Shown here: positions 14,609 through 39,239 of the stretch, piece by piece
Position numbering within the stretch: the first letter of the stretch is position 1
How the letters are laid out: every line of letters starts with the position of its first letter
Assembly: GCA_903901975.1 (NCBI GenBank)
Contig: CAIUTB010000086.1
Location: forward strand, 1-39,239
Source of the DNA: an uncultured Bacteroidales bacterium
GTDB taxonomy: Bacteria > Bacteroidota > Bacteroidia > Bacteroidales > Paludibacteraceae
Reading direction: 5' to 3'
DNA: 39,239 nt
Translations under genes and position numbers: made by a program
The notes under the pieces: generated by a model
What the model saw: the letters and a program-made list of their open reading frames with translations, nothing else
Databases searched by the model: none
What the model was told of the DNA's origin: nothing

Positions 14609-17600
14609 TCAGATTTTCTGGAAATGAACAACAACTTTGCTTATATTATTGTCTCGGTTGAATATCAATTGGCTTTGTAAATGGCTAAACACATAATCAA
14701 CGGTATGTTGTATTTTTCCATCATTAAATACTAACTCCATTCCCTTAATTCCATCTATTTGATAAACAACAGGGATTGAGCAATATGTAAATGACAAATA
14801 GGGATTTCCTTCCGATTTTTTAATAAATTCTTCAGCCTTCAAAATGGTCGGATTGATAGAAATACAACCATTTTCGACCTGCACCCCCAGTTCATAAAAC
14901 CGACTGATAATATCCTCTTTCACCTGACCTGTCATACCCGGTTGTTGAACGCCGGCCATAGTTGGAGTATGTGAATAGGGATCGAACGGGAATGAGCCAT
15001 ATACAGTAGGTGATTTGTGCGCACCAATACCCGCTTTCACATCGAAATAATGCTGTTCAAGAGCTTCAATTGTAGTTTTACCTGCTGATTGTTCTATGGC
15101 TATTTTGATATTTTCAGCAATAACCAACAACAATTTGGAAACCATATGCCAATAAATACATCCAAGACCTTCATACTTGTAAAACGTGCCCGAACGACCT
15201 GTAAATGACTGATGATCAAAAATTTGTTCGTAAACAGTTTCTAGTTCCAGAATATCGGCATCTGTAACATTGAATTTTCTTTCTTTTTTCAGTTTATCCA
15301 ACGCTTCACGGAGGAAATTGGCATTGTTGAAGTTGGAGTTAAAATGGAACTCACCTTTTATATCGGTGGTAATAATCCGTGAATCGCCTTGTTTGACAAG
15401 TTCTTCCAAGAGTTTTATTCGTTGAACATCGGTGGAATTGATATTATTTTTTTCAATAAACAAAGGTAATCGCTTGTTTGGATACAAAATATAACTATTC
15501 TGGTCAGCACGATACAACGAACTGTTGCGCAAAGCAGTCAATAAAGCGAGCACTTCCGTTGGCGAGAGTTTTCCGGAACTCAACACGGCTACCTGTCCTT
15601 CGAGCATTTCATATAAATGTCGAACCGCAACACTTTTTTCGGAGAAACTAACCAGATTATAAGCGTGATACAAATTATCCGGACGTTTATTCACGTCAAT
15701 TGACTGGTCGAGATAATCTAGAGTCAATGTTAAGAACTCCAGCAGATTTGATTTCGGGATCAGATGGTTTTTACCCGTGAAGCCTTTGTAAATAAGCTCA
15801 CGATAAGCACTTCCGGCATTTCCGAGTTCGTCGGCAACCGTACGACGCTGTTCGTTATTGAACCCTTTTTCGAGTAAAAACGAATTATCAATCAACGCTG
15901 TGTTTATTTCATCAAAGAAACCAAACATTTCGGCCGAAACTGAAAAGCTTTCAGAAGCGGATTGTTGGAAAAGTTCCTGTGCAAAAACCACAAACCGCCG
16001 CATGTAATAGAGCGTCACCATGGAAGCACCTGTTCCAACCAGCGCGTTGTTGGCATCGTTCCATTCCGGGCGAAGCGTGTTCATCCAAATTCCGGCTTCC
16101 GGTATAAAATTGCTGAGTTTAGCGAGTAAAGTGGCGAGCAATTTCTCGGTAAAACTCACAAGTTTCACTTCTCCGTCGGGATCCAACACCAATCGTGCAT
16201 CAGAACCATAGGTTTTTTCAAGATTTTCAATTTGATGATGTAACTGAGAATCAAAACGAATGGAGTTTTTCGGGGCGGCCACAATTTCGGCATATTCCTT
16301 TATACGGTAAGGTACATTAGCATAGGCAAACATCTCTTTATCGAGCCATGAAACCAGACTTTCCGGATAGTGACTTTGAGATACTTCCATCAGTTTCAGC
16401 AAATAAATAATTTGATGATCACCCCAATAGCCAATGTTCGACCACGGATTTTCGGGCTCAATCACTTCCCAGTCAATTCCATCGTTGGTTACCCGATACG
16501 GATTATATCCATCGGCGGTGGTTGCATTCAGAAATTTGGCAATAATGCCGTTGATATATGCCGGATACGACATTGAAAGCGCTTCCCAGTTCTGGAAAAT
16601 ATCGCGCCAGTTGCCCTGATACGAAAGTAGTTTATCTCCGCTTTCGTCCTTTATATTGATATTGAACAAGTTCCACGGACGGCTCGGGTCACCATGCCGG
16701 CGACTAAAGGTAAGTGGCAGATATTCCTGAAACAAACGATATAAATTAGCATCGTTTTGTTGCTGAATGAGTTTGTCAAGTTCAGTATATTCTAGGGTTT
16801 CGGGCAGTTTCGATAAGAATTTTACATGTTTTTCTGCACATTTTTTATTGAAATGCTGAATATGCTTGTTGAAAAACGAACTGTGAATCGTGTAATTATC
16901 GCTATATATTCCTCCACGCATGGTATTGAAAAGTACATTCGAAAAATGACGTGCCACACCATTCTCATCAGCAGTTTGCTGAACACCATCAGCTTGTGCA
17001 ACAATGGCTTTCAAAGCCTGAGTTCCTTTGGAAATATTTTGTTCTACAACTTCTGCAATGTTTGCTGTTTTGCCAATAAAATCTATCAGATTATTCACCG
17101 CTGCCACATCCTGATTCAATTCAGCCACAAAATACCAGGTTTTTATTTCTGCTGGAATCAGTGCCAAATCCAAACAACTGAAAAAAGCCCCTCTGACTCC
17201 TTTTGCTTCAGTTTCAGGGTTTGCTTTTTCGCCATTTCTGACTTTATCCAGTTGTGTTGAACTCAATAAATAATCTGCATTTTCCAATCCAAGAGACCAA
17301 ATGGTATTAGCCCGAAGCGATTCACTTGGTTCGGGGCGATCCACCAGAATGGCCTCCATGCGGAACAATGCCAATCCGGAATTTTCAACCAGTTCGGTCT
17401 TTTTATAACCATCTACCAGAGTTGAATAGGCATTTTGCGTCATGCGGTCTATTCCGGAAGGAAGGATATTTTGCAGTCCATCAACCAGATACACTTCAAC
17501 TGATTCATTACTGTCATTTTTCAAGATACTTTTCTTTACCCAGCCAAAATCGTCGGAATTCATCCAGGCATAACTGAAAGTCAGTCCCAAATCCAGATTC

Positions 17601-18010
17601 TGTTCGGTAAAAATCAGTTTGTTACCGGTTGTGCTTTTGGCAATTGACCGTTCCAGTTTATAAATGCCTTTGTTTCTTTCCGAAAATGGCTCCCACAAAT
17701 AAGTTTTGCCACTTTTGCTGACATGCAAAATAGTTTTGCTGCCGGTCATTTCAGCCGATTCGTTTATTTTATCATCGGTATAATAAGGGAAAAGTGCTGT
17801 GTCGGGGTTTTTCCGACCGGCAGTTAATCCACCGGAACTCGAAATATACATCCAATGGTTGGAATCGCTTGCCAGACTGATAAAAAACGGCTGCATCGAG
17901 TCGTAGTTTTTTATCAGGTAATACTTTTCATCATCAATAAGGACAAATTGTCCGTCTGCTTCTTTTTTGCCGGAAATTACCGGGTTGTTTCCAATAAAAA
18001 TGTTATTCAT
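14609..18010 (-). CDS. Cytoplasmic glycoside phosphorylase, GH149-like (beta-1,3-oligoglucan phosphorylase candidate)
   Basis: 1133 residues from the ATG at 18008-18010 (MNNIFIGNNPVISGKKEADG); an upstream in-frame ATG at 18047 would add 13 residues reading into a hairpin and is less likely. No signal peptide or lipobox, hence cytoplasmic. The N-terminal half is beta-rich ('DSNHWMYISSSGGLTAGRKN'), as in GH94-type phosphorylases, followed by an (alpha/alpha)6 region. The motif RPEWNDANNALVG carries the expected catalytic aspartate at Asp652. 'GRSGTFYKYEGLGCIYWHM' and 'SPTVYGSFPFDPYSHTPTMA' look like phosphate- and substrate-site segments. The size, well above GH94 cellobiose phosphorylases, points to GH149 or GH161, which phosphorolyse beta-1,3-oligoglucans to glucose-1-phosphate. 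The beta-1,3-glucanases upstream support this. It is the last gene of the PUL, next to a GPH transporter. Confidence 0.8.
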   Translation of the reverse strand: MNNIFIGNNPVISGKKEADGQFVLIDDEKYYLIKNYDSMQPFFISLASDSNHWMYISSSGGLTAGRKNPDTALFPYYTDDKINESAEMTGSKTILHVSKSGKTYLWEPFSERNKGIYKLERSIAKSTTGNKLIFTEQNLDLGLTFSYAWMNSDDFGWVKKSILKNDSNESVEVYLVDGLQNILPSGIDRMTQNAYSTLVDGYKKTELVENSGLALFRMEAILVDRPEPSESLRANTIWSLGLENADYLLSSTQLDKVRNGEKANPETEAKGVRGAFFSCLDLALIPAEIKTWYFVAELNQDVAAVNNLIDFIGKTANIAEVVEQNISKGTQALKAIVAQADGVQQTADENGVARHFSNVLFNTMRGGIYSDNYTIHSSFFNKHIQHFNKKCAEKHVKFLSKLPETLEYTELDKLIQQQNDANLYRLFQEYLPLTFSRRHGDPSRPWNLFNINIKDESGDKLLSYQGNWRDIFQNWEALSMSYPAYINGIIAKFLNATTADGYNPYRVTNDGIDWEVIEPENPWSNIGYWGDHQIIYLLKLMEVSQSHYPESLVSWLDKEMFAYANVPYRIKEYAEIVAAPKNSIRFDSQLHHQIENLEKTYGSDARLVLDPDGEVKLVSFTEKLLATLLAKLSNFIPEAGIWMNTLRPEWNDANNALVGTGASMVTLYYMRRFVVFAQELFQQSASESFSVSAEMFGFFDEINTALIDNSFLLEKGFNNEQRRTVADELGNAGSAYRELIYKGFTGKNHLIPKSNLLEFLTLTLDYLDQSIDVNKRPDNLYHAYNLVSFSEKSVAVRHLYEMLEGQVAVLSSGKLSPTEVLALLTALRNSSLYRADQNSYILYPNKRLPLFIEKNNINSTDVQRIKLLEELVKQGDSRIITTDIKGEFHFNSNFNNANFLREALDKLKKERKFNVTDADILELETVYEQIFDHQSFTGRSGTFYKYEGLGCIYWHMVSKLLLVIAENIKIAIEQSAGKTTIEALEQHYFDVKAGIGAHKSPTVYGSFPFDPYSHTPTMAGVQQPGMTGQVKEDIISRFYELGVQVENGCISINPTILKAEEFIKKSEGNPYLSFTYCSIPVVYQIDGIKGMELVFNDGKIQHTVDYVFSHLQSQLIFNRDNNISKVVVHFQKI

Positions 18011-18028
18011 TTTTTTAAAATTAAAGTT

Positions 18029-18085
18029 TTCGAACCGCAATAGAAACAATAATAAACACTATAATTGTTTCTATTTTAGTTCGAA
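18029..18085 (-). repeat. Large intercistronic inverted repeat before the phosphorylase gene
   Basis: TTCGAAC (18029-18035), 3 bases, AATAGAAACAAT (18039-18050), a 13-base loop, ATTGTTTCTATT (18064-18075), 3 bases, GTTCGAA (18079-18085). Nineteen pairs in two blocks around a 3 by 3 internal loop, filling most of the 83-base gap between the transporter and phosphorylase genes. There is no T tract in the transcribed direction, so an RNA-processing, stabilising or operator role is more likely than termination. Confidence 0.8.
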
Positions 18086-18093
18086 ATAAGATA

Positions 18094-19440
18094 CTATTCT
18101 AATGCCCGTTTTGCATCCAAATCTATTTTCATTTGGTCAGTTGTATTTTTATCTATTTTGTAGAAAATCATAAAAATGGCACATGACATATACAAAATAC
18201 CGGGAATCACCGAAACCAGCAATTTGATACCGGTAATGGCTGTGTCGGTTTGTGTAACGTTTGGAACAAACTGCGAAAGCGTGAGAATCCAGCCTGCAAT
18301 GGCAGCGCCTATTCCCCACCCTGCTTTTTGAGCAAAAACCGCAGCTGAAAAATACAAACCGGTGGATCGGCGACCGCTTTTCCATTCTCCATAATCAGCC
18401 GAATCTGCAATCATAGTCCAAAGCAGCGGAACAGCCGGCGCATAAGCCATTTTGGCAATAATATTAAACACATAAATGGTGGTAATATCTTGTACGCGAG
18501 CCAGATAAATCAGTATGAAAAACAAACCGGAAATCAACGAACTACCAATAAAAACGTTTTTGTTTCCAAAGCGTTTTGCCAGTGGTTTTGATAAGGGAAG
18601 TGCAACGATCAACGCCACTGTACCAACCACATTGAATAACTGAACATTGTCTTCTTTGCCCAGATAATATTTGAAATAGTAGGCAATGGCAGCATTTTGC
18701 ATGGCAAACATGATAAACGATATGATGCCAACTAGTGCCAAAATAACCCAGGCTTGATTTTTAAACAAGTTTCTGAAATCTTCTTTCAACGAATTTTTCT
18801 GGGTTTTTGGTGGCTGAACACGTTCTTTGGTGGTTTTGAAAGTAATAAAGAAAAACACCAGACTCAAAGCTGCAAACAAAAACACCGTGTATTGAAACCC
18901 TTGTGCTTTGTTACCATTTCCGAAAAACTTTGCCAGCGTCAATGCCAGTCCGGTAACGATAAATTGCCCGCTGAAACCGGCAATAAAACGGTAGGTATTC
19001 AATCCGGCACGTTCGTAGGTATCGTCGGTCATAACTGCCCCCAAAGCCGAATATGGCAGATTAATGGTGGCATATGCTGTCATCAATAGCACATAAGTTG
19101 CTCCGGCGTAAATAATCTTTCCAAACTCACCAAAATTCGGAGTGGTGAAAGTCAGAATAGCCAGAATGGCATACGGAATCGCACCAAACAAAATATACGG
19201 ACGGAATTTCCCCCAACGTGTATTGGTCCGGTCGGAAACCACACCAATTATCGGGTCAATAGCCATATCCCAAAAGCGGGCAACCAACATAATTGTGCCG
19301 GCAGCTGCCGCCGAAATGCCGTACACATCGGTATAGAAAAACAGCAGCCAAAAGCCCACCATGTCCCAGACAAAGTGCGAAGCGGTATCACCCAGACTGT
19401 AACCAACTTTTTCTTTAAACGATAATTTTGTTGTATTCAT
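18094..19440 (-). CDS. GPH-family (glycoside-pentoside-hexuronide) sugar:cation symporter
   Basis: 448 residues, about 12 membrane segments. The family signature is clear in 'GYSLGDTASHFVWDMVGFWLLFFYTDVYG' (broken here by region: residues about 12-40), 'ARFWDMAIDPIIGVVSDRT' and 'TRWGKFRPYILFGAIPYA', as in MelB-like members of the major facilitator superfamily. It should move a glycoside into the cytoplasm with a cation. Sitting directly before the cytoplasmic phosphorylase gene, it is the best candidate importer for beta-1,3-gluco-oligosaccharides. A second GPH transporter lies 8 kb upstream in the locus. Substrate is inferred from context only. Confidence 0.85.
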   Translation of the reverse strand: MNTTKLSFKEKVGYSLGDTASHFVWDMVGFWLLFFYTDVYGISAAAAGTIMLVARFWDMAIDPIIGVVSDRTNTRWGKFRPYILFGAIPYAILAILTFTTPNFGEFGKIIYAGATYVLLMTAYATINLPYSALGAVMTDDTYERAGLNTYRFIAGFSGQFIVTGLALTLAKFFGNGNKAQGFQYTVFLFAALSLVFFFITFKTTKERVQPPKTQKNSLKEDFRNLFKNQAWVILALVGIISFIMFAMQNAAIAYYFKYYLGKEDNVQLFNVVGTVALIVALPLSKPLAKRFGNKNVFIGSSLISGLFFILIYLARVQDITTIYVFNIIAKMAYAPAVPLLWTMIADSADYGEWKSGRRSTGLYFSAAVFAQKAGWGIGAAIAGWILTLSQFVPNVTQTDTAITGIKLLVSVIPGILYMSCAIFMIFYKIDKNTTDQMKIDLDAKRALE

Positions 19441-19539: not shown

Positions 19540-21186
19540 TTATTTCCGTCCCACTTCTTTTGCCCAATCACCGCGGTAAATCAGTTTCTGATCGTGAATT
19601 CTGAAACTGCATTTTCCGTATTGAACAGTAATACCTGCCGAAGCATTTACTACCCAGCAATTATCCGGAATCGGGAAGAAATTCTCGGTTTGAATATGCT
19701 TTTTATCCTGTTGATCTTTTATTGAAACCGTTACCTGAGGACCAACTTCCCAACCTAAATGCGTATTGTAGCTCACTCTTAAATCGTCGCCCAATTTTAA
19801 ATTACCATTAGTTACAATCTTTGTTTTCACTGAAGCAATTTTTCCGGTATTTAAATCCTTATCCGGAGTCACTTCAATGGTCAATGTTGGTAATTCAATA
19901 GGTTTATTTGATGCTAAAATCATTATTGATTCTGTTTTCAGCAATTTACCCGATTTATTATAAAACTCGAAAGCAAGTTCCAAATCTTCAATACCTTTTG
20001 CTGCAATATCTAATTGGTCGGCAAAATATCCTTCTTTCATTATATTTTTAGAATACAGCACTTTATCATTGAGTTTGACTGTAACTCTACTCACATCCTT
20101 ATCGGTGTAAAGTTCCAATGGAATTTTTCCTGATTGATAAATCTCATTGTTTTTCGGACTGATAATCAATGCTTTCATATAGTCGCGCATTGCAAACCAA
20201 ACCGGACGTGGCGAACCGTATTTGTCGTTCACATCGCTGTAGCCCCAGAAACCAAACCATTCTTCAGGTTGATCGGGATTATGATAATTTTTGTCACCAC
20301 CCTTCCACCAGCCATCGGCATAGTAAAACGGACACATTCCCACTGCTCCTGCATCGATTAAATCGCGGTAATTAGCAATCAGCCCATTGCTTTGCTGTAT
20401 GAGTGTTTGTCCTCCATATCGCCCGTAACCTTTGTGCGAAACCGAATATCCAAATTCCGTGCAGATAAATGGTTTAGTACGACCGTTGAGCTCAACAAGA
20501 CCTTTGACATAATCTTTGAAACCCATGGTGGCAGTTTGCGCTTCGCTGTGGTCGTAACAATTGTAAGCATTCACATCAAAATAGCTTTCGTCCATATAAT
20601 CACTAATCATTGCATTGGCTGAAAGCGTTACAGGAATGCCGGGATGTTCAGCATGAATAAGGTTTATCAGGATTTTCATTAAGTTGACAAACGCATTTCC
20701 ACTCATTTTATACACATGGTCGGTTTGTGGCTCATTGATAACTAAATATGTGATGATACAATCGTATTTTTTAGCAAATGTCATCACCTTGGCGACATCA
20801 GATTCGCATTTTTTTACAAAAACCGGGTCACCATAAATACCTTCCGGATTAATTTCGAGCCCCATGATAAGTTTTAATCCGGAGGCTTGTACGACTTTTA
20901 ACTGAGGTTCGGAAAACTGACTCCAGGTTCGGATAGTATTATATCCGGCTTCTTTTATCACTTTCAAATCGAATTTCAGCAAATCCAAATCGTCGGAACG
21001 CACACCTTCGTAAGGATGTTGTCCGGGGCGCGCACCAATTTCATAACCAATGGCCTTGATAAAGAACTTTTCGCCATTTAACCAGTACCAATTATCCTTA
21101 ATTCCTATGCTCGTTTTCGATTGGGCAAACACAGAAATTAAAGATATCTGACACATAAAAATTACAAATGCTAATTTGAGTTTCAT
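19540..21186 (-). CDS. Secreted clan GH-A TIM-barrel glycoside hydrolase, family not assigned
   Basis: 548 residues with a signal peptide (MKLKLAFVIFMCQISLISVF, cleaved near residue 22) and no lipobox or T9SS tail, so probably periplasmic. 'YWLNGEKFFIKAIGYEIGAR' opens the barrel; the acid/base is Glu152 in 'YLVINEPQTDH' and the nucleophile Glu244 in 'PFICTEFGYS', the clan GH-A pattern. Aromatic residues in 'CPFYYADGWWKGGD' fit a sugar site. Residues from about 345 form one or two Ig-like beta domains. Candidates are GH158 (known in Bacteroides beta-1,3-glucan loci), a GH2-type barrel, or a GH72/GH17-like enzyme; I cannot choose by eye. Context suggests trimming of beta-1,3-gluco-oligosaccharides between the outer and inner membranes. 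Confidence 0.75.
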   Translation of the reverse strand: MKLKLAFVIFMCQISLISVFAQSKTSIGIKDNWYWLNGEKFFIKAIGYEIGARPGQHPYEGVRSDDLDLLKFDLKVIKEAGYNTIRTWSQFSEPQLKVVQASGLKLIMGLEINPEGIYGDPVFVKKCESDVAKVMTFAKKYDCIITYLVINEPQTDHVYKMSGNAFVNLMKILINLIHAEHPGIPVTLSANAMISDYMDESYFDVNAYNCYDHSEAQTATMGFKDYVKGLVELNGRTKPFICTEFGYSVSHKGYGRYGGQTLIQQSNGLIANYRDLIDAGAVGMCPFYYADGWWKGGDKNYHNPDQPEEWFGFWGYSDVNDKYGSPRPVWFAMRDYMKALIISPKNNEIYQSGKIPLELYTDKDVSRVTVKLNDKVLYSKNIMKEGYFADQLDIAAKGIEDLELAFEFYNKSGKLLKTESIMILASNKPIELPTLTIEVTPDKDLNTGKIASVKTKIVTNGNLKLGDDLRVSYNTHLGWEVGPQVTVSIKDQQDKKHIQTENFFPIPDNCWVVNASAGITVQYGKCSFRIHDQKLIYRGDWAKEVGRK

Positions 21187-21262: not shown

Positions 21263-24200
21263 TTATTCTTTTACAACTTTAGCATTCATCATTCCACGTG
21301 AACTGTCAGCTTTTACAAAATAAATTCCAGTTTTGAAACCTTCCATATTCAGGTTATAATCTGCCGGGATTTTTGCATCAAAAACACAATTACCAATGAT
21401 ATCATACAACATCAAACGGCAATTATCTTCGGGAAGAACAACATGCAGTACATTCTTAACCGGATTAGGATAGAAGAATGGTTGACTTAACATTACGTTT
21501 TCTACAGCAGTGCCGTCGCATTTATTACCAACAGTATAGGAGAACTGTTTGGTAACTACCATACCACCGGCATAAGCAAATTTACAGGCTATTTTTATCA
21601 CCGAACCTATAGTTTGACCCGTAAGTGTTTTAGTGAATTTTTTACCTCCTGAATTAGCCATAGACGTTTCAACAAAGCCTGAAGTATAATTCCAAAGATA
21701 GGCCACTAATCCCGCTTTATCATCTAGCATTTCAAAATTAATAACGACATCAGTACCGGTGGTTACAAAACCATATTTATAACCCACGCTGAATAAACCC
21801 TGTGAGGCATCAGAGGCTGTTCCAACACAATCAGTATTTGTATTAGGTGACGTTGTGGCTGAAAGCACAATCGGATTATTCGCAGCTTTGTTTCCGGTTA
21901 GATCGCTGGCAGTAATACTGAATGAATAATTTGTTTCAGGAGCTAAAGCTGTAATCATCAACGACTTTTGAATGCCTGAAGCAGTTGAAATACCAGTATT
22001 ACTTGTACCATAAGCCACGTTGTAAACAACTGTACCTGAATCATCAGTGGCATTGAGTAGCAATTCAACAGATGAGCCTGTAATTGCTCCTAAAGTAGCT
22101 GTAAAGCCGGTTGGAGCTTGTGTGTCATTGGTTGTACTTCCACAATCAGAGCCCACAACGTATGTGATATATTTTGTGACTGACATTCCACCCGAGTAAG
22201 CAAATTTACAAGCATAACTTATTGTTGAACCGGCAGTTTGACCGCTGATTGTAGTACTGAAAATATTTCCGCTTACATTGGTCATTTGAGATTCAGCAAA
22301 TGGTGTTTCTTTCCACAAATAAGCAATTAAACCCGGCTGATTATCAAGCATTTCAAAAGTTATATTTACATTGGTACCTACAGTTTCATAAGTGCACTTA
22401 TAACCCACACTAAATGAACCTTGTGTTGCAACTGTTGAAGTTGTTGTACACATCATTAAAGGAGCAATAGTTACATTTGCAGCCTGAGATGTGCTTACTG
22501 CAGCTCCATTATCAGTAGCTTTAGCAGTTATAACATAATTTCCTACTGTCGGATTCCAGGTAGCTGTATAAGGTGCAGTTGCAACACTTGAAATCAATGT
22601 TGTTCCCTGATAAAAATCAACTTTCGAAATCGTTCCATCAAAATCACTGGCAGTAGCAGTTAAAGTAACCAGTTTACCTTGAGTAAATGTTGAATTATCA
22701 GTTGGAGCAGTCAACGAAACCGTTGGAGGAACATTGGCAGTACTAGTCACCATTACCTGAACGGTAGTATAAGCTGTTCGTAAATCTGTATTTGTAACTG
22801 TCAGTTTGAATTGATACATTCCTTCAACCAATCCACTAATAGCTGGTTTTATGGTAGTTATATCCGAAATCTGAGCCACTGTCGGACCGTAAACCTGTTC
22901 CCATTTGTAAGTAAGTGCTTTAGAACCCGATTCAATACTTGCCGAACCATCCAAACTTGTTGAAGTTACCGGAAGAACCACTTTTATATCCGTTCCTGCA
23001 TTTGCAGTAGGATAACTGAATGTCAAATCTCCCGTGCGGGCAAATGTCATTTTGCCGAGATTAAATTCTCCGGATGAGAATGCCACTTTCAATATATGCT
23101 TACCAGCTGTTAAAGGAACATCAGCAAGTGTATTGGTTGCCCATATTGTCCAAACTGTAGAAGATGTTGAAGGAACAGGAATATCCGATGAGACTGTTTG
23201 ACCATCCAGTTCTAAATGGAATGGACCACCACCAGCCGAATTGCCTGATGAATAACGGAATGCAAACGAGTATAAACCCGACTGAGCCACATTGACTGTG
23301 TATTTCAGCCACTCGCCCGATGCTATTGTTCCAACAACTGCACCTTCTACCTGATCAAGTGAAGCATCCACATATTCGTCCATACGGAAATTACCTGCAT
23401 TAGCAGTAGTTACATCCAGATAAGAGATATTCTGACCTTTACCTCCTTCAAAAATATCGTATTTTCCAGCCTCGATTGTTCCCGGAATTGCCGAAACAGT
23501 TCCCGCATAAGGCAATTCGTTTCCAACTAAAACCTGAGCTGTATTAGTAACATTGTATTTATCTCCATCGAAAATTTTAGAGTAGAAATTATGAATTCCC
23601 AATTGTAAATTGGTGGCTTTTAATGTAAACGGAGCAGTTGTAACAATACCCAACGAAACCGTTCCATCCATAAATTCAACTTTGGTTGGAGTACCACCCG
23701 AAGCAACAACATTCAATGCAGCATTTCCACCTACGAATGCCTTACCGAATGATGAGCTAATCGTTCCTGAAAACCTTCCATCCATACTGGTTGCCATTTT
23801 TCCTGCCGAAACAAGCAATTGATATCCAGTGGAAAATGTAACAGTTATGGGTGAAGCGCTGTAGTTTTGAGCCACATAATTTATTACTCCATTTTTAACG
23901 AAAGCTGCTGCAATAGGATAGTTAGCAGTAACTGCTGCATCAACTCGTCCTAAGGCATTCATAGCATGTAGCCAATGATAGGTTTGTGCATCAGAAATAC
24001 CAAATTTGATATCTCGGTTCGGGAATGAATTATACATCTCAATAGCTTTAGCGGGGTCTTTAAATGCAAGATATTCCCACATAATGTCATGCCAAAGGTT
24101 CGGGTTAACCTGATTGCTCGAAATGCCGGTATTGGATACAATCTCGTCCCAAAGGCGTTTCACGTATACAGTGTCCTGACCTAAATACAGCGAACCTCCC

Positions 24201-28550: not shown

Positions 28551-28578
28551 TAAATTTCTTTTTTTAATTAAATCAAAG

Positions 28579-30828: not shown

Positions 30829-32460
30829 TTATAATTTTACAAATTTCTGAGTTGAAAGTTGACCATTTGTCATTTTTGCAACCAGAATATAGTTACCGGT
30901 AGCTAAACCTGATAAATTAATCACTTTCGAATTTGCGTTTGCAACTTCAGTTCTAAGGTTTTGACCTAGTAAATTACGAACAGTTACTTCGCTCATTTCT
31001 GATTGACTTGAAACAAACAGGTTGTTTGATTTCATATAACAATTAATGACTGGAGAAGCTAACACATCATTGATTCCATTTGTAAACGTCCAGGTTCCTT
31101 TATAGAAAACTACATTATCAATATAGAAAGTGCCTGGTCCAGAGAAAGTTCCAAAACCTATCTGAATTGGGAGAGTTGATGCACCTGATGCTAAAGCACT
31201 AACAGGAATATCAATACTGTTCCATACATTGGCAGTAAGAGTACTATGATTTGTAGGAGTAGGTAACACATACCATGTACCAGTTGGAGTTACACAATAT
31301 TTCAGTGTAGCACCTACTGCATCTGTACCTGGATAAATGTCAAAATGTAAATTTGTCATTCCGGTAATAGTTAATGCATCGAATTGAATGCCACCTCCAC
31401 CACCACCAGCTGTTGTGGCAACGAGCTTTAAAGCATTTCCGGCATCAGCTAAAGTTGCAGCCGACCAGGTAGAGTTCCACCATTGTTGAGTAAGATATAC
31501 GAAGTTTGTAACTGAGGCAGTATAAGCATCGCTATATATTGATTTTACATTAGCAGCAGCAACTGTAGGAGTTGGTGAAGCAGGTATGGCAGAACCAGTT
31601 GTAATCGGAACAACAATCGGGTTATTTGCAGCAGCATTTCCGGCAGCATCTTTACAAGAAACACTAAATGAATAAGCAGTCGAACCTGACAAACCTGTAA
31701 CAGTATAGTCTTTTTCAACTCCTGAAACTCCTGCTACATTCAATGTTGTGGTGCCATAAGTAATTGTATAATTTACAGCCCCGGAATTGTCAGTTGCATT
31801 TAGTTTCAGAATTACGTCGGAATTTGCACCATTAACTGCTGTAGCAGTAAAACCTGTTGGTGCCTGAGTATCAGCACTTGCATCAGACCAAAAATAGATA
31901 TTATCTAAATATACAGTGCTATATTTAGAGCTACTACCCGCAACTCCCAATGAGTACCATTCATTCGATTGGAATTTAAACTGAATTACAGAAGCTAATA
32001 CAGCACCTGTAAATGCACTTAATGGAATATCAAGCGATGTCCAGGTACCATTCGTTGCTACTGTTTTAGTTACAGTGAATTCGCCACCAGTCCAGATAAT
32101 TCCAATTGGAAAAGTAGCAGCATTGGCATCATTAGTCCAAACATCGAGGTGGAGGTATTTCATTGTGCTACAAACTTGCGCACTTCCAAACTGAACACCC
32201 TGATAATTCATATTTGAATACTTAATAATATGATCAGCTGTTCCAATGGTTAAAGGTGCATAAGCAGTTCCCTGACCCCAATTAGGAAAGAAATCTGTCC
32301 CGGTCACATTGGTATAAGCATCACTGAAAATCGAGATAACATTACCCGAAGATAGAGTTGGCGGCGTTGGAGCCGAAGTTGTTGGTTGAGCTAAAACGGC
32401 TGCAGTTGCCAAAGCAATCATTGTTGCCAAAGCAAAGTAAAAACGTGTAACTTTTGTCAT
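30829..32460 (-). CDS. T9SS-exported multimodular glycan-binding candidate (two jelly-rolls, FN3), no catalytic domain
   Basis: 543 residues with signal peptide (ends near 'AAVLAQ', residue 25). Jelly-roll module 1 (about 38-194) starts 'VISIFSDAYTNV' and ends 'STVYLDNIYFW'; FN3 (196-288); module 2 (about 300-455) starts 'VKSIYSDAYT' and ends 'GTFYIDNVVFY'; T9SS tail (about 467-543) ending STQKFVKL. No glycosidase motif is seen. Start and end motifs and tryptophan-rich strands fit a CBM4/CBM11-like jelly roll. In a Sus-type locus, such a protein may serve as a surface glycan-binding protein, but anchored by T9SS instead of being a SusE/F-type lipoprotein. Binding is inferred. Confidence 0.75.
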   Translation of the reverse strand: MTKVTRFYFALATMIALATAAVLAQPTTSAPTPPTLSSGNVISIFSDAYTNVTGTDFFPNWGQGTAYAPLTIGTADHIIKYSNMNYQGVQFGSAQVCSTMKYLHLDVWTNDANAATFPIGIIWTGGEFTVTKTVATNGTWTSLDIPLSAFTGAVLASVIQFKFQSNEWYSLGVAGSSSKYSTVYLDNIYFWSDASADTQAPTGFTATAVNGANSDVILKLNATDNSGAVNYTITYGTTTLNVAGVSGVEKDYTVTGLSGSTAYSFSVSCKDAAGNAAANNPIVVPITTGSAIPASPTPTVAAANVKSIYSDAYTASVTNFVYLTQQWWNSTWSAATLADAGNALKLVATTAGGGGGGIQFDALTITGMTNLHFDIYPGTDAVGATLKYCVTPTGTWYVLPTPTNHSTLTANVWNSIDIPVSALASGASTLPIQIGFGTFSGPGTFYIDNVVFYKGTWTFTNGINDVLASPVINCYMKSNNLFVSSQSEMSEVTVRNLLGQNLRTEVANANSKVINLSGLATGNYILVAKMTNGQLSTQKFVKL

Positions 32461-32559: not shown

Positions 32560-34701
32560 TTATAGTTTTACAAGTTTTTGAGTAGAAACCTGACCATTAG
32601 TCAATTTCACTGTTACCAGATAATTTCCAGCTGCAACATTGCTTAATTCAATTGACTTTTCAAGACCGTTTACCATAGTTATTTTTACAGTTTGTCCAAC
32701 CAAGTTACGAACAATCACCTGACTAATTTCAGATTTAGCTGAAACTGTAAGTTTATCAGTCATTGGATTTGGATAACAACTTACAAGTTCTGAAGTTTCA
32801 ATTGCATTTAAGCCTGTCGATGTATCATTGAAAAAATACAGATTATCCATATAGAAGGTACCACCAGTACCACCGTCAAATTTAAATTGGTCGATGGCTG
32901 TATAAACCACTCCAGTATAAGTTGTCAACATAATGTCAAAACTGTTCCAGGTATATGCTGTTAATGTTCCAAGTGAAGTTGGAAATTCAGCTCCTCCGGG
33001 GTTGTGACTGATTGGAGTTAATCTTACAGTTGTTTCTGTTGTAGGGAAAATATCAACATGCAATTTATTCATGCTGCTAACATCGGTTGCATTTAATGTG
33101 ATTCCCTGATAACCGAAATTTGAATATTGCATTGCATTATTTCCTCCAAGTGTTGTTGCAGTAGCTACCGTTTGTTGTCCCCAACCTGGGAAGAAATTAG
33201 GAGACCCAACATTTGTATAGGCATCACTATAAACCGAAATAACTTTTGCTGCAGCAAGAGTAGGAGTTGGTGCTGCTGACGGTAATAAAGGACTCTGAGT
33301 TACAGTAATAGTTTTAGTTGTACCGCTTCCTGTAATGGTAACAGTTGCTGTTCTGCTTGAATAAGTAGAGTTTGCAGATGTAGCAGTTAATGTAATAGTT
33401 GCATTTCCTGTACCACTTAAACTACTTGGTGTAAGCCATGTTTGGTCGCTGGCAACCGTCCATGTACTTGATGTAGTAATACCAAACGTATTTGTACTGG
33501 TTGCAGGTTGTGCAATAGTTAATGATACAGTCGAAACAACAAGTGATGGTACTACATTTGTGTAAAAATAGACATTATCCAAATAGAAGGTACCGTTCAT
33601 TCCCCAAAAGCCGACTTGAGTCAATTTAGTTAAATCAAGACTTGGCTTGCCTGTTTTAAAATCAGCTAATGAAATGTCAAAGCTGTTCCACTGATTTGCA
33701 ACTAATGTATTAGCAGGGTGGTATTCATTGCCAGCAGGTGCTACAATACCTATCTGCATAGTTGTTACAGTGGTTGGGTAAATGTCAACATGTAAAAATT
33801 GCATTGAACTAACATCTTGCAAGGTTGAAACTTGAGTACCAAAGCAATTCCCACTTGTAATTAACTTCGAGGTATTACCACCCGTAACTACGTCAACAGA
33901 AGTGGTAGCGGCCCACCATTGAAAAGCATTTGATACACAGGTATAGGTATCGCTGTAAATTCCTATAACAGTTGCAGCATTACGGGTTGGTGGTGTAGGA
34001 GCAACGGGGTGTGAAGCTGTTGTAAAGCTTGCAGAAGCTGAATTAGTCGATATATTTCCCGCTGCATCTTTTGCGGTAATTGTCAAGTTATAACTTGTAG
34101 AAGCAGCTAAACCGCTAACTGTAACATTTCCAGATGAGTTAGTAAGAAGTGCTTTATTAGTTATACCATTTGTTGCATCGTTGGCAACATAATTGATAAC
34201 AGGTGAAGTAACGTCATCCGTTGCTGTTAATGTCAAATTTACAGAACTTACGGTTGGTGTCCCTACCACAACAGCTGTTCCCATTACAGGCTTCGTAACA
34301 TCACTCGATGTACCACAGGCATCTCCTACAGTATAAGTCAAATCCGTAGTTCTTGCAGAAGCTCCAGCATAAGCAAAATAACAAGCGTAAGTTATAGTTG
34401 CACCCGGAGTCTGTCCAGTTAGTGTATAAGTGTATTTTTGGCCACTTACAAGAGCCATGTTGGTATAAGCATTAGCTGGAGTAACAAGTTGTGCTACTAG
34501 CCCCGTTTTAGTGTCCAACAATTCAAAAGTAATTGTTACACTAGTTCCAGACGTTGTAAAGGTATAATTATACCCTAACGTAAAAGATCCTTGAGCCGCT
34601 GTAGTTAATGTTCCGGCACATGCAGTGTTTGTAGCATTAGCTACACTTCCCCAAGTTGCTATCGCAACTAAAATAAGGAAAAATCTAGTAATTTTCTTCA
34701 T
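32560..34701 (-). CDS. T9SS-exported multimodular glycan-binding candidate with BACON domain, no catalytic domain
   Basis: 713 residues; signal peptide ends near residue 23 ('SVANA'). Order: three-cysteine module (about 25-130; Cys28, Cys107, Cys129) like the two in the GH81; FN3-like (135-228); jelly-roll (about 235-382, 'VIGIYSDTYTCV' to 'GTFYLDNVYFY'); BACON domain (about 385-470, 'SSTWTVASDQTWL'); second jelly-roll (about 475-626, 'VISVYSDAYTNV' to 'GTFYMDNLYFF'); T9SS tail (640-713) ending STQKLVKL. No catalytic signature. BACON domains recur in Bacteroidota glycan-associated proteins. It probably binds beta-1,3-glucan at the surface; it and the 543-residue protein look like related products of module shuffling. 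Confidence 0.77.
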   Translation of the reverse strand: MKKITRFFLILVAIATWGSVANATNTACAGTLTTAAQGSFTLGYNYTFTTSGTSVTITFELLDTKTGLVAQLVTPANAYTNMALVSGQKYTYTLTGQTPGATITYACYFAYAGASARTTDLTYTVGDACGTSSDVTKPVMGTAVVVGTPTVSSVNLTLTATDDVTSPVINYVANDATNGITNKALLTNSSGNVTVSGLAASTSYNLTITAKDAAGNISTNSASASFTTASHPVAPTPPTRNAATVIGIYSDTYTCVSNAFQWWAATTSVDVVTGGNTSKLITSGNCFGTQVSTLQDVSSMQFLHVDIYPTTVTTMQIGIVAPAGNEYHPANTLVANQWNSFDISLADFKTGKPSLDLTKLTQVGFWGMNGTFYLDNVYFYTNVVPSLVVSTVSLTIAQPATSTNTFGITTSSTWTVASDQTWLTPSSLSGTGNATITLTATSANSTYSSRTATVTITGSGTTKTITVTQSPLLPSAAPTPTLAAAKVISVYSDAYTNVGSPNFFPGWGQQTVATATTLGGNNAMQYSNFGYQGITLNATDVSSMNKLHVDIFPTTETTVRLTPISHNPGGAEFPTSLGTLTAYTWNSFDIMLTTYTGVVYTAIDQFKFDGGTGGTFYMDNLYFFNDTSTGLNAIETSELVSCYPNPMTDKLTVSAKSEISQVIVRNLVGQTVKITMVNGLEKSIELSNVAAGNYLVTVKLTNGQVSTQKLVKL

Positions 34702-34775: not shown

Positions 34776-35783
34776 TTATTTTATTAGTTTAAATGTTTTG
34801 TTATCAGTTTTCAAAAAATAAATCCCGCTTGCTAACTGATTTGTTTTTAATGTTTCGTCACCTGTTATATCCTTTTGTAATATCTCCTTTCCAAGGCTAT
34901 TAAATAGTTTTACTGAAGTTGGAGTGTCTGTTTTCACATTAATTACATCCGAAAACTTTGTTGGATATACCTGAAGGTTTACATCTTGTAATTCGTTCAC
35001 AGCAGTATTAAGTTGATATAGATGAACATAATCCACCATCATTTCTACTGGATTATTAAAAATTGTATCATCAACTGTACCACCCATTGTACCTCCAATA
35101 GCAAGATTCAGAATTACATAGAAATATTGATCAAAAGGCCATCCTGTTGACGTATCGGTAAAATTGCGATAAAGAGTACCTGTATTAACATTGTCGACAT
35201 AAAACAATATTTGATCCGGATCCCATTGAATTGAGTAAATATGGAAGTTATTTTCCATGTTAGCTTGATACACTTTAGCAAACCAATTATTTCCAATAGT
35301 ACCATTCTTCAGGGCAGTATGTACGGCGTGAGAAGTCATAGTAGGATTAGAACCAATATGCTCCATGATGTCAATTTCACCACTTTTCGGCCAGCTTCCA
35401 TAGACACTCGACTGTGGCATCATCCAGAATGCAGGCCAGGTACCCTTACCTGAAGGAACACTAATTCTGGATTCAACTTTTCCGTATTTAATAAATCCTT
35501 TGCTTTTTGAATAAATTCGACCGGAAGAATAATTACGATCTACTACATAATTTTCCTTTTTGGCTGTAATGATTAAGTTTCCGTTTTCAACCCTAATATT
35601 GTTTGTACCATCGGTATAATATTCTTGTTCCTGATTGGCAGCATAACCTACCTGTATATTCCACTTGGTCAAATCGAGTGTAGTACCGTCAAATTCATCG
35701 GCATAAACCAACGAGTAGCCACCTTGAGCACTGACAGTCAGACATATTAAAACTATAAAGCTGAAAACGAATACCTTTTTCAT
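34776..35783 (-). CDS. GH16 beta-glucanase (laminarinase-type), T9SS-exported
   Basis: 335 residues; signal peptide MKKVFVFSFIVLICLTVSAQ. GH16 jelly-roll about 22-265 with EIDIME (nucleophile Glu136, Asp138, acid/base Glu141), 'TWPAFWMMP' and 'PFDQYFYVILNLAIGG'. After the domain a T9SS tail (about 270-335, 'VNELQDVNLQVYPTKFSDVI') follows with no linker domain. More distant from the other two GH16 proteins ('MEHIGS' rather than 'MG' after the motif), so it probably represents a different GH16 subfamily and may differ in product length or tolerance of beta-1,4 or beta-1,6 branches. Confidence 0.92.
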   Translation of the reverse strand: MKKVFVFSFIVLICLTVSAQGGYSLVYADEFDGTTLDLTKWNIQVGYAANQEQEYYTDGTNNIRVENGNLIITAKKENYVVDRNYSSGRIYSKSKGFIKYGKVESRISVPSGKGTWPAFWMMPQSSVYGSWPKSGEIDIMEHIGSNPTMTSHAVHTALKNGTIGNNWFAKVYQANMENNFHIYSIQWDPDQILFYVDNVNTGTLYRNFTDTSTGWPFDQYFYVILNLAIGGTMGGTVDDTIFNNPVEMMVDYVHLYQLNTAVNELQDVNLQVYPTKFSDVINVKTDTPTSVKLFNSLGKEILQKDITGDETLKTNQLASGIYFLKTDNKTFKLIK

Positions 35784-35811
35784 AAATTTATCGAGATTGT
35801 AAAGGAGGTTT

Positions 35812-35847: not shown

Positions 35848-35875
35848 TTAATAGTTTAATTAAAATTGAAATCGA

Positions 35876-36757
35876 TTATTTAATTTCAATCTTTTTGTTG
35901 AGACTACCTGAACGTACGATATAAATACCTTTCTGAATATCTTCAATACCCATAATAGCTTCGTTTGAAACTCTTACTTTGGCACCGGTAATACTATATA
36001 ATTCAATTGGTTGAGTTGCTCCAACCACGCTGATTGTTTTGCCAGTCTGAATTACATCCAAATCTGATTTTACACTATTTACAGCAGTTGTTCCTTTTTT
36101 GTAAACAAAAATGGCATCCATATTTATGGTTGTTCCTGAGGTACCACCACTTAAGAAATAAACCACATTGGCATTAGCAGGTACTGCAGCAGGATAACGA
36201 AGTCCAAGATTAAAAAATGCTGACATAGGGATTTCAATTAAGTGCCATTTATTGTCACGAGTGAAATTTGTGTACGGTTGGTAGGTAGTCGTTCCATCCA
36301 CAAAAGCACTAGCACCGATACAAACACGAGCAGTCAATCCACCAGGACCATCCATACCAATAATATGAGAAGCAGTGTTTGATCCTTTCATGGCAATGTG
36401 TAAGGTGTAATCAGAAGTTACTGCAGTCATGTCTTTAGAAATCGGACCAGAGAAACCAAATCCTGACCAACCCACTGAATTTACAGAAAAGGAAAGGAAA
36501 GTTCCAACTTCACCGTTCCAGTTTGGACCAGAAGCAGTTAATGCAGTATAAGTACTACTCCATACATACAAAAAGTAATTGGTGTCATCAACCCGATAAT
36601 CTTTAACAACATTAGCAGCTGGAATTTTGGCAGCTGAAACATCATCCAAATAAATCAGATAATAGTTTGAACCTTTAGTAAAATCGTCTTGTGCGAAAGC
36701 ACTTGTTGCAAAAGCACTCATGGCCAGCAACATCAAAGAAAAAGTAAGTTTTCTCAT
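35876..36757 (-). CDS. Secreted T9SS protein following SusD, putative surface glycan-binding protein
   Basis: 293 residues; signal peptide MRKLTFSLMLLAMSAFATSAFA (cleaved near 22). The middle (about 25-225) is beta-rich, ending 'TINMDAIFVYKKG', which parallels the end strands of jelly-roll binding modules. Residues about 232-293 form a T9SS-like tail ('SITGAKVRVSNEAIMGIEDI', 'GIYIVRSG'). I see no catalytic motif and cannot assign a family. Directly following susD is where Sus-type loci usually place a SusE/F-like surface glycan-binding protein, so that role is likely, with a T9SS tail instead of a lipid anchor. Confidence 0.65.
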   Translation of the reverse strand: MRKLTFSLMLLAMSAFATSAFAQDDFTKGSNYYLIYLDDVSAAKIPAANVVKDYRVDDTNYFLYVWSSTYTALTASGPNWNGEVGTFLSFSVNSVGWSGFGFSGPISKDMTAVTSDYTLHIAMKGSNTASHIIGMDGPGGLTARVCIGASAFVDGTTTYQPYTNFTRDNKWHLIEIPMSAFFNLGLRYPAAVPANANVVYFLSGGTSGTTINMDAIFVYKKGTTAVNSVKSDLDVIQTGKTISVVGATQPIELYSITGAKVRVSNEAIMGIEDIQKGIYIVRSGSLNKKIEIK

Positions 36758-36813
36758 AATGATAATTAATTAAATTGTAAATAAATAATAATGAATAATT
36801 GTAATTTAAAGTG

Positions 36814-36841
36814 TGTAACCGACCGACTATAGCCGGTTACA
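36814..36841 (-). repeat. Intercistronic inverted repeat after susD
   Basis: TGTAACCG (36814-36821) and CGGTTACA (36834-36841) form an 8-base stem with a 12-base loop, 8 bases after the susD stop. The T tract lies on the plus-strand side, so for the leftward mRNA it follows no terminator pattern; a 3'-end-protecting role for susCD mRNA after processing is possible. Confidence 0.5.
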
Positions 36842-36849
36842 TTTTTTTA

Positions 36850-38409
36850 TTAATATCCGGGATTCTGTGCCATTGGATTCAAATCAATTTCGGCAGCCGG
36901 AATTGGGAATAATTCATGCTTTCCTTTTTCAAATGTAGCCATTTCAGTTTGTGCTGCAGTTGTTTCAGTAGCTTTGTAGGCATCCATGGTTTCTTTGGCA
37001 ATTCCCCACCGAACTAAATCGAACCAGCGGTGACCTTCCATAGCCAGTTCTACTCGGCGTTCGTGGCGAATAGCTTTGCGTAAATCGGTTTGATTATCGG
37101 CATAAGTGCCATAAGGGAAAGTCGGTAAAATGGCAGATGTTCCCCGAGCACGTGACCTTACGCTTTCCAGTGCTGTTTTGGCTGCTACCAGATTATTTAT
37201 TTCGCAACAGGCTTCGGCGTACATAAGTAATACATCTGCATAACGGATTACTTTATTATTGATTGGACCACGGGTAGGATGTGACATACCAATATAAGTA
37301 CTATCAGGATTCATTAACGCATACTTTTTATTCAAATATCGACAACCAAGATATATTTCTTCTGCAGGATTTGCAATTTCAGCATCTGTGGGGTTGATAA
37401 TAGTAGCATCACGACGCGGATCTTTGGTTTCGTATTCGTTGTAAAGATTCTGAGTCGGTTTATTGAATCCCCAACCACCAACTTTCGGAGCACGTGAACG
37501 GGTAAGAATTGTTGTAAATGTACCACGGGTAAACCCATCGCCATTACCGTAATCGCTTGTTCCTTCGGCCATATACTGAATTTCAAAAATGGATTCTTTT
37601 CCGTTTTCGCCGCCCAATGTAAAGTTATCGGCATAATTTGTAACTAAGGAGTATTCACCTGAGTTGATAATTGAGTCACCCCATGATTTGGCCATATCAA
37701 ACTGTTTGGTATATAGATACGTTTTCAACAACATAGCCTGAGCTGCTCCTTTAGTTGCACGTCCCAAATCACCGGAAGTATATTTACTTTTCTTCCAAAG
37801 TAAGCTGTTGGCTGATTTTAAATCTGAAATAATAAAGCTATTAATAGAGTCTGCAGTTGCACGAGGTTGTACCCATTGTTTCGAACTTCTTACCACGAAG
37901 TCAACCTTAGGTACACCACCAAATATACGAACCAGGCGGAAATAATACATTGCTCTGAGGTATTTGGCTTCGCCAATAACCCGGTTTTTCACACTGGCAG
38001 TCAGTAAAGCATCAGTTTTCATGCCCGGAACCTGATCGAGCACTAAATTACAACGTCCGATTCCAATGTATTGTGCTCTGTAAAAATCAAGCAGATAGGC
38101 ATTGTTTGTTGCTGTTTTAAAGTTTTCCATGTCATAAACTATCGACATATCGCCAATACTCTGGCCACCCTTCAATGCATCGTCTGAAACAACATCGCCA
38201 ATAAACCATTCAGGAAAATAAGTAGAGTTGAATTCCCACATTAGTGGCACATAGGCACCATTTACTGCCTGAATGGCGGTACTTCCGGAGGCGAAAAAGT
38301 CACTCAATTTGGTTACTGCAGGAGATGGTGCTGTTATCCAATCCTGACATGAAACCAACGATAAAGCCATTGATAGTACGAAAGCGGCTTTGAATATATA
38401 TTTTTTCAT
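36850..38409 (-). CDS. susD: RagB/SusD-family outer-membrane glycan-binding lipoprotein
   Basis: 519 residues; lipoprotein signal MKKYIFKAAFVLSMALSLVSC with lipid-attached Cys21. SusD-like features include 'YLRAMYYFRLVRIFGGVPKV' (TPR-like helices), 'VIRYADVLLMYAEACCEINN', 'RHERRVELAMEGHRWFDLVR' and the C-terminal 'HELFPIPAAEIDLNP..AQNPGY'. SusD proteins cap the SusC channel and deliver oligosaccharides. It starts 55 bases after susC. The symbol marks the family; the expected ligand here is beta-1,3-glucan on the basis of neighbouring GH16 and GH81 enzymes. Confidence 0.95.
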   Translation of the reverse strand: MKKYIFKAAFVLSMALSLVSCQDWITAPSPAVTKLSDFFASGSTAIQAVNGAYVPLMWEFNSTYFPEWFIGDVVSDDALKGGQSIGDMSIVYDMENFKTATNNAYLLDFYRAQYIGIGRCNLVLDQVPGMKTDALLTASVKNRVIGEAKYLRAMYYFRLVRIFGGVPKVDFVVRSSKQWVQPRATADSINSFIISDLKSANSLLWKKSKYTSGDLGRATKGAAQAMLLKTYLYTKQFDMAKSWGDSIINSGEYSLVTNYADNFTLGGENGKESIFEIQYMAEGTSDYGNGDGFTRGTFTTILTRSRAPKVGGWGFNKPTQNLYNEYETKDPRRDATIINPTDAEIANPAEEIYLGCRYLNKKYALMNPDSTYIGMSHPTRGPINNKVIRYADVLLMYAEACCEINNLVAAKTALESVRSRARGTSAILPTFPYGTYADNQTDLRKAIRHERRVELAMEGHRWFDLVRWGIAKETMDAYKATETTAAQTEMATFEKGKHELFPIPAAEIDLNPMAQNPGY

Positions 38410-38464
38410 ATTTGTATTATTTTTAATTTGAATCTGTTTTATTCTACTGTTCTTGAATTAAAGA

Positions 38465-39239
38465 TTAGAATCCTAAATTTACACCAACCAACATGGTTCT
38501 GGCCTGAGGATAATTTCCATAATCTATTCCACCACCAATTTCAGGATCGTATCCGGTATATTTGGTAAAAGTCAGCAGGTTATTTCCTGAAACATAAATA
38601 CGCAGGCGGTTAATCTGAACTTTCTGAGTAATACTTTTAGGAATAGTGTAACCTAGTTGAATGTCTTTCAAACGAAGGTATGCACCGTCTTCAATAAAAC
38701 GACTGGAAGCTCTGAAGTTGTTTGTACTTCCGTACGGATTAGGAATATTTCCCGCAGGATTTGTTGTAGTCCACACATCACGCATGGCAGTACTTAGTGT
38801 AGCTTCTTCGCCTTTTCCTTCGGTGCGATAACGTACCTGGTTGTAAATTTGATTACCATAAACGCCCTGGAAGAACAATTGCATATCAAATCCTTTGTAA
38901 TCAACCGAAGCACTCAGACCATATGTAAGCCATGGGAATGGATTTCCAAGATTCATTTTATCACTGTCGTCAATTTTTCCATCACCATTCAAATCAAGGA
39001 ACTTGGCATCTCCACCTACTGCTCCGGGCTGAATAATTGTTGCTGTTTTATTGGTATAAGCCAGTGCTTCAGCATCAGATTTGAAAACTCCCAGGTATTT
39101 ATAACCCCAGAATGTATTTACCGGTAAGCCTTCGTCGCAAAGTAAAATATTATCAATACCATTGTACATTTTTTGCCCACCATTCAATTTCGTCAACTCG
39201 TTGCGGATAAAAGATACATTCCCACTTAAGCTGTAATTA
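38465..39239 (-). CDS. susC: SusC-family TonB-dependent receptor, C-terminal 257 residues (cut by window edge)
   Basis: The frame is open to the right edge; a TTG at 39194-39196 is internal, since codons above it continue 'NYSLSGNVSFIRNELTKLNG', typical SusC barrel sequence. Further on: 'FWGYKYLGVFKSDAEA', 'DLNGDGKIDDSDKMNLGNPF', 'DYKGFDMQLFFQGVYGNQIY', 'LRLKDIQLGYTIP' and the ending 'MLVGVNLGF' with the terminal aromatic needed for barrel assembly. The missing part should hold the plug, the carboxypeptidase-like N-terminal domain and the TonB box. It imports oligosaccharides through the outer membrane with SusD and TonB. The locus promoter and any regulator lie beyond the edge. Confidence 0.95.
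   Translation of the reverse strand, partial: NYSLSGNVSFIRNELTKLNGGQKMYNGIDNILLCDEGLPVNTFWGYKYLGVFKSDAEALAYTNKTATIIQPGAVGGDAKFLDLNGDGKIDDSDKMNLGNPFPWLTYGLSASVDYKGFDMQLFFQGVYGNQIYNQVRYRTEGKGEEATLSTAMRDVWTTTNPAGNIPNPYGSTNNFRASSRFIEDGAYLRLKDIQLGYTIPKSITQKVQINRLRIYVSGNNLLTFTKYTGYDPEIGGGIDYGNYPQARTMLVGVNLGF

Follow-up and report, generated by a model that had tools for sequence, protein, structure and literature searches.

Gene content and boundaries of the locus

The window analyzed here, 39,239 nucleotides long, is the entire contig CAIUTB010000086.1 (C86) of an uncultured Bacteroidales bacterium of the Paludibacteraceae (assembly GCA_903901975.1; 3.97 Mb, 170 contigs, 98.6% complete). Positions 14609–39239 contain genes for β-1,3-glucan breakdown together with a gene for a phosphorylase of glycoside hydrolase family 149 (GH149). 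The last step encoded within this locus would be phosphorolysis, to which we assign a probability of about 0.75, because GH149 is its only predicted cytosolic enzyme and no GH1, GH3, GH17 or GH30 gene accompanies it.

All genes of this region lie on the minus strand, separated by short gaps. A first-pass annotation, made from the nucleotide sequence, had reported susC, susD, three GH16 genes, GH81, a GH-A hydrolase, two GPH symporters and a large phosphorylase in one direction; all of these are present at about the positions that it gave. Its list is correct as far as it goes, and omitted two fn3/BACON proteins with type IX secretion system (T9SS) tails and a 293-residue protein. The features are as follows.

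14609..18049, minus strand: GH149 β-1,3-glucan phosphorylase, predicted to be cytosolic (NCBIfam NF058639; PDB 6hq6; active-site residues)
18094..19440, minus strand: GPH-family inner-membrane symporter 1, adjoining GH149 (MFS_2, E 2.2e-116; TIGR00792, 399.7 bits, cut-off 231)
19540..21186, minus strand: GH157 β-1,3-glucanase of clan GH-A with a signal-peptide-like N-terminus, predicted to be exported (LaGH157, PDB 9fz9, E 1.7e-270)
21263..26026, minus strand: GH81 endo-β-1,3-glucanase, predicted to be secreted, with CBM35-like, PKD, Big_7 and fn3 domains and a T9SS tail (Pfam; PDB 6fop, E 8.6e-133)
26122..27552, minus strand: GPH-family symporter 2 (MFS_2, E 9.8e-67, 225.8 bits, cut-off 27; TIGR00792, 185.7 bits, under the cut-off of 231)
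27663..28637, minus strand: GH16 endo-β-glucanase (Pfam, E 5.7e-16; PDB 5nbo, E 2.4e-48; motif EIDIVE)
28811..30727, minus strand: GH16 endo-β-glucanase with fn3 and a T9SS tail (Pfam; PDB LamCAT 6jh5, E 8.3e-47; motif EIDILE)
30829..32460, minus strand: predicted secreted fn3 protein with a T9SS tail (Pfam tail match just under cut-off; TIGR04183, 29.9 bits, cut-off 23)
32560..34701, minus strand: predicted secreted fn3/BACON protein with a T9SS tail (domain searches)
34776..35783, minus strand: GH16 endo-β-glucanase with a T9SS tail (Pfam, E 3e-25; PDB 7wwc, E 3.5e-53; motif EIDIME)
35876..36757, minus strand: glycan-binding-type β-sandwich protein of 293 residues beside SusD, with a weak T9SS-like tail (TIGR04183, 16.2 bits, under the cut-off of 23)
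36850..38409, minus strand: SusD-like lipoprotein (Pfam SusD_RagB, E 1.3e-45; lipobox)
38465..39238, minus strand: C-terminal part of SusC, the rest of the gene being on contig C92 (TIGR04056, 230 bits, model positions 730–981)

On the left, the neighboring valS gene ends at 14514. The right edge of the window is the contig end and falls within susC. When the SusC N-terminus of the same-genus genome G144 was used as the query, the best match in the genome under study, at 65% identity, lay at the end of contig C92. This end overlaps the reverse complement of the window exactly over 141 bases with a shared reading frame, and the two parts align to one and the same SusC (75 and 78% in genome G547, 63 and 64% in G144). 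Beyond susC, C92 encodes a divergent Y_Y_Y/Reg_prop regulator of 968 residues and then thrS. As C92 continues susC up to thrS and valS lies on the left, the locus is bounded by thrS and valS. Whole-genome searches revealed no GH1, GH3, GH17 or GH30 gene between these two. The absence of GH1, GH3 and GH30 from the window, which the first-pass annotation had pointed out, thus holds: six GH3 and two GH30 genes are on other contigs, and GH1 was not found in the whole genome. That annotation would have abandoned its proposal of a phosphorolytic locus for a GH3 gene just beyond the right edge; none is present on C92 up to thrS.

The susC/susD pair and the genes for carbohydrate-active enzymes (CAZymes) share one strand, as in a polysaccharide utilization locus (PUL). 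A linked sensor or regulator is common in PULs, if not universal, and here the 968-residue protein stands beside susC. The locus is thus a complete PUL of a Paludibacter-like member of the Bacteroidota, with β-1,3-glucan as the putative substrate.

The GH149 phosphorylase

The phosphorylase has 1133 residues when read from the ATG at 18010 (the open frame, from a TTG, has 1146). It scores 1595.4 bits against the NCBIfam equivalog model NF058639 (cut-off 1150; model positions 3–1133 of 1134), and Pfam-A gives no match to it. Almost all of it aligns with Pro_7066 (PDB 6hq6; phmmer E = 0). The W-N-D and R-D motifs and the phosphate-site His described for Pro_7066 (PMC6771811; here and below, papers with PMC numbers are cited for the parts of their text that were available) are kept as W650 N651 D652, R469 D470 and H955, numbered from the ATG. 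By the score against the family model and by this similarity to the Pro_7066 structures (PDB 6hq6 and 6hq8), over the full length and at the same active-site residues, the enzyme is assigned to GH149; the comparison with Pro_7066, which covered these residues, gave no sign of a functional difference. All three motifs occur in 98 of 99 GH149 frames, a set itself chosen partly by such motifs.

Inspection of the sequence revealed no hydrophobic N-terminus in the window enzyme. The same was the case in all 80 named loci, which are the best 80 of 573 confirmed GH149 loci with flanks of up to 10 kb, when N-terminal hydrophobicity was counted (a count, not a trained signal-peptide predictor). The large cytoplasmic phosphorylase of the first-pass annotation is therefore a GH149 protein with no export signal and with the published active-site residues. 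A second GH149 copy and a GH94 partner were both sought by genome search and rejected, the single GH94 match (18.7 bits, on contig C3) being below the cut-off.

GH149 enzymes act on oligomers with a degree of polymerization of 2 and longer, and Pro_7066 converts laminaritriose (G3) to glucose (PMC6484121). As β-1,3 oligomers can be degraded to glucose by GH149, no glucosidase would strictly be needed for linear chains.

Exported glucanases and probable surface proteins

Five genes of the locus encode exported glucanases. The GH-A enzyme matches PDB 9fz9 over residues 22–548; according to the PDB titles, 9fz9 is the GH157 protein of Labilibaculum antarcticum (LaGH157) and 9g4n is its E224A mutant with laminaritriose. 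The likeness to LaGH157 (9fz9, 9g5g and 9g4n) extends over the full length with the catalytic glutamates kept, and the window nucleophile E244 aligns with chain position 224, the one mutated in E224A. Judged by sequence, the enzyme is a GH157 protein close to LaGH157. The assignment rests on sequence because the predicted fold model is poor (predicted local distance difference test score, pLDDT, 54); the search with this model served only to give the titles of PDB entries that the sequence searches had found before. No publication naming 9fz9, 9g5g or 9g4n was found in the literature searched, which excludes most subscription journals.

The catalytic domain of the GH81 protein matches PDB 6fop over residues 28–747 at the domain match level (E 8.6e-133). 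The GH16 catalytic motif is E-x-D-x-x-E, and it is present in all three window GH16 proteins, whose nearest solved relatives include several named laminarinases.

Domain searches recognized no catalytic domain in the fn3 protein at 30829–32460; this protein and the T9SS protein at 32560–34701 are probably surface glycan binders. The 293-residue protein has no Pfam match. In its predicted model (pLDDT 63), the nearest folds include CBM11, CBM30 and CBM29 (E about 1e-5 to 1e-4), amid unrelated microtubule-associated proteins. In the window and in genomes G144 and G547, the protein has a C-terminal extension that bears the weak T9SS-like tail; homologs in locus L038 of another genus and in the same-genus loci L184 and L034 have no extension and a lipoprotein-like N-terminus. 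Further homologs occur in L031 and L189. The surface anchor of this SusD-adjacent protein has apparently been swapped between relatives.

Proposed route of degradation

As suggested by their families, the secreted GH81, GH16 and GH157 enzymes would cut the polymer. The SusC/D pair would bring the resulting oligosaccharides into the periplasm, from where they would pass, still oligomeric, into the cytosol through one or both of the GPH symporters. There, GH149 would release glucose-1-phosphate units with phosphate, leaving a final glucose. Enzymes of this family remove units from the non-reducing end. We infer the substrate, the direction of the reaction, the specificity of transport and the co-expression of the locus. 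The saving of one ATP per bond, and its suitability for a fermenter, which the first-pass annotation put forward, would follow by inference only.

If this route is correct, a β-1,3-glucan PUL of the Bacteroidota can do without glucosidases of its own, keeping the bond energy as glucose-1-phosphate, and the locus would be a clean test case of whether phosphorolysis pays for anaerobic degraders of polysaccharides.

GH149 loci in the same genus

GH149 is present in 21 of 48 genomes of the same genus. Its surroundings were read in 20 of these (G573, a fragment, was left out), and two of them, G559 and G575, have GH149 right at a contig end, leaving 18 genomes with a visible neighbor. A GPH gene adjoins GH149 in 16 of the 18, the exceptions being G560 and G550. 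G547 has nearly the whole window architecture, including GH157 and the second GPH gene, from SusC and the regulator to GH149, with one T9SS protein fewer. G144 has a similar locus from susC to GH149, and lacks GH157 and the second GPH gene as well. Within the stretches read, neither G547 nor G144 has GH3, GH30 or GH17. GH157 precedes the GPH–GH149 pair in the window, G547, G562, G566, G548 and G570. In G094 and G545, the GPH–GH149 pair is present and no other PUL gene was recognized in the stretches read. A secreted-looking protein of 1738 residues (L171:9314-14530, L180:1013-6229, L195) adjoins GH149 in G547 and G566 and lies on the same contig in G570.

GH149 loci in other genera and in published systems

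In a sample of 150 genomes of the family, 18 have GH149, including 14 from other genera, of which nine were read. In eight of these nine, GH3 adjoins GH149 or sits one gene away; the ninth locus (G026) ends in a GH30-like fragment. Among the best 80 of 573 loci, 22 have GH3, 48 have GH30 and 50 have GH17, while 65 have at least one of these. When the 36 loci with shorter flanks are dropped, 40 of the remaining 44 have GH3, GH30 or GH17; GH3 or GH30 is present in 39, and the five with neither are L086, L089, L103, L109 and L126. GH149 loci without GH3 and GH30 thus exist elsewhere too, as a minority. In these surveys, open reading frames were called mechanically and neighbor labels come from best phmmer matches (E from 1e-4 to 1e-10) instead of curated annotation; the named loci and the genomes surveyed overlap, as L065/G569, L066/G548, L067/G570, L068/G082, L070/G560 and L080/G026 are the same records. 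Apart from same-genus genomes, GH157 of the window type occurs, at E 1e-20 or better, in one of 395 genomes of the class, namely that of the window.

All nine GH3 proteins inspected from GH149 loci of the family (eight from other genera and one from the same-genus genome G105) have lipoprotein-like N-termini, and the N-terminus is hydrophobic in 18 of 23 GH3 proteins of the named loci. The lipoprotein-like GH3 N-termini and the cytosolic-looking GH149 suggest that the two enzymes act in different compartments. This speaks against GH3 and GH149 being alternatives in one compartment. If the proposed route is correct, the locus would also point to separate gains and losses of the two enzymes.

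GH149 has been known from PULs of the Bacteroidota since 2018, and laminarin PULs that contain it have been published. Bacteroidetes GH149 genes are mostly in predicted PULs or CAZyme clusters, whose common features are GH3 and/or GH30_1 as well as GH17 and/or GH16 (Kuhaudomlarp 2018; PMC5827456). Like those PULs, for which β-1,3-glucan degradation was proposed, the window locus has susCD, β-1,3-glucanases, among them three GH16 proteins, and GH149; unlike them, it has neither GH3 nor GH30 nor GH17, but has GH81 and GH157. Formosa laminarin PULs contain GH149 (PMC6246565), and some Muricauda clusters have GH3 in its place (PMC13188888). The laminarin PULs of both genera resemble the window locus in GH16 and GH149, but carry GH17 and GH30, which the window locus does not (PMC6246565; PMC13188888). 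In GUL-1 of Bacteroides cellulosilyticus WH2, a locus with susCD and GH157 acting on β-1,3-glucan like that of the window, the oligomers are finished by the exo-hydrolases GH3 and GH2 (PMC10229575), whereas the window locus offers a phosphorylase instead. No published GH149 PUL without GH3 and GH30 was found in the literature searched, which was available in part and excludes most subscription journals. The window locus is a modest variant, mildly differing from known ones by the missing glucosidase genes. GH149 copy number correlated with chlorophyll (PMC11573768), GH149 expression was raised in spring (PMC10811738), and GH149 reads were present in laminarin-fed sediment (PMC11919646); the available part of a further paper (PMC11345257) does not mention GH149.

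Ten of the 80 named loci (L075, L076, L088, L090, L093, L097, L103, L108, L121 and L122) have a sugar transporter and a GH2-type TIM-barrel protein of about 440 residues directly before GH149; profile comparison links the latter remotely to GH157. In one of these, L103 (Eudoraea), no GH3, GH30 or GH17 is present within 10 kb. A protein of about 990 residues with a weak GH2 TIM-barrel match (L106:3872-7018 and relatives, fragments included) occurs in 44 of these 80 loci. GH149 is also found on contigs labeled as metagenome-assembled genomes of Actinomycetota, Brockarchaeota, Rhodobacteraceae and Clostridiales (L069, L089, L107 and L131), which may be mis-binned or carry a transferred gene.

Possible phosphorolysis in the locus and in the cell

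The first-pass claim of phosphorolysis instead of hydrolysis stands for the locus but is not supported for the cell, which has six exported-type GH3 enzymes, two GH30 and a GH2. Several observations weigh against the phosphorolytic reading. All six GH3 proteins of the genome, encoded on contigs other than C86 and C92 (C143, C93, C49 and C40 among them), have N-termini of the exported type, judged both by inspection and by hydrophobicity. The one on contig C143 passes the BglX cut-off (845 bits against 666), and two others are just under it (647 and 649). A PUL on contig C40 has SusC/D, GH3 and both GH30 genes of the genome. Among the relatives, GH3-type genes lie about 9 and 19 kb away from GH149 in G105, GH157 has a GH30 neighbor in G562, and GH17 is present in G560 and G550. 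GH157 of B. cellulosilyticus itself yields disaccharides and glucose, so that some free glucose may form outside the cell (PMC10229575).

The GH3 of related PULs is of the type seen near GH149 in the sister genera and in G105. Among the matches listed, an orthologue with at least 67% identity is present in nine of the 21 same-genus GH149 genomes, namely the query's own G105 and eight others at 67–73%. Three genomes are ambiguous (G560, 53%, and G572, 55%, both full length; G554, 48% full length and a 56% fragment), and nine, including the window genome, have 48% or less. A GH149 tree was built from 36 proteins, 20 of them from this genus; with G554 scored as lacking this GH3, the presence of the latter requires five changes on the tree, a number reached by 62 of 500 shuffles. 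A single origin of the GH3-bearing or the GH3-less state was rejected by this tree; the PUL-type GH3 has a scattered distribution, is no clear lineage trait and does not track GH149.

As other parts of the genome encode exported GH3 enzymes, and as GH3 and GH149 do not go together across the genus, replacement of hydrolysis by phosphorolysis in this bacterium seems rather unlikely. Equally doubtful is the broader idea that a sub-group of Paludibacter-like fermenters, with a locus devoid of the usual exported GH3, GH30 and GH17, ends β-1,3-glucan breakdown wholly by cytosolic phosphorolysis, with all oligomers passing through the GPH–GH149 pair, which in related genomes is also seen away from other PUL genes. 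Exported GH3 enzymes may share oligosaccharide hydrolysis in the periplasm, and to that extent the phosphorolytic reading overlaps with a mixed route. The strong form of this, in which they trim most oligosaccharides there and GH149 handles only what enters the cytosol, is a serious contender at somewhat less than even odds: it agrees with the six exported-type GH3 proteins, the BglX-type enzyme and the proximity of GH3 to GH149 in most other-genus loci read. However, all six lie unlinked to the window locus, and none is orthologous to the GH3 of related PULs; a displaced orthologue was rejected, as the best identity among the matches listed is 45%, against 67–73% in the eight other genomes. 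Two GPH symporters would also suit import of oligosaccharides better than that of glucose. The families searched include no cytosolic β-glucosidase in this genome, although exported ones are present, and a GH17 query protein that gave matches in both positive-control genomes found none here; with the bin 98.6% complete, and GH149-bearing genus members 75–100% complete, such absence is not proof. A GH2 gene lies beside the GH3 gene of contig C93, along with GH88 and GH92.

The phosphate level in cells normally favors phosphorolysis, and GH149 stands beside a symporter in an import and degradation locus with the five exported glucanase genes. It is therefore very improbable that GH149 works here in the synthetic direction, storing glucose-1-phosphate as β-1,3-glucan, although its reaction is reversible (PMC5827456). 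There is nearly an even chance that the locus serves for a β-1,3-glucan other than laminarin, such as callose, curdlan, mixed-linkage glucan or the wall glucan of fungi or yeasts. Enzymes of families GH81, GH157 and GH16 are active on several β-1,3-glucans. In agreement with another substrate, one GH157 was characterized on fungal glucan (PMC10229575) and the same genome has a β-1,6-glucanase PUL; the named laminarinases nearest to the GH16 proteins point the other way, though they do not separate the substrates.

The β-1,6-glucanase PUL is that of C40, where GH3, SusC, SusD, a 472-residue protein and two GH30 genes lie at about 43290–56000 (L147). One GH30 protein is above the endo-1,6-β-glucanase cut-off (763.8 bits against 700) and the other below it (393.7). 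This putative β-1,6-glucan PUL may complement the window locus on branched glucan.

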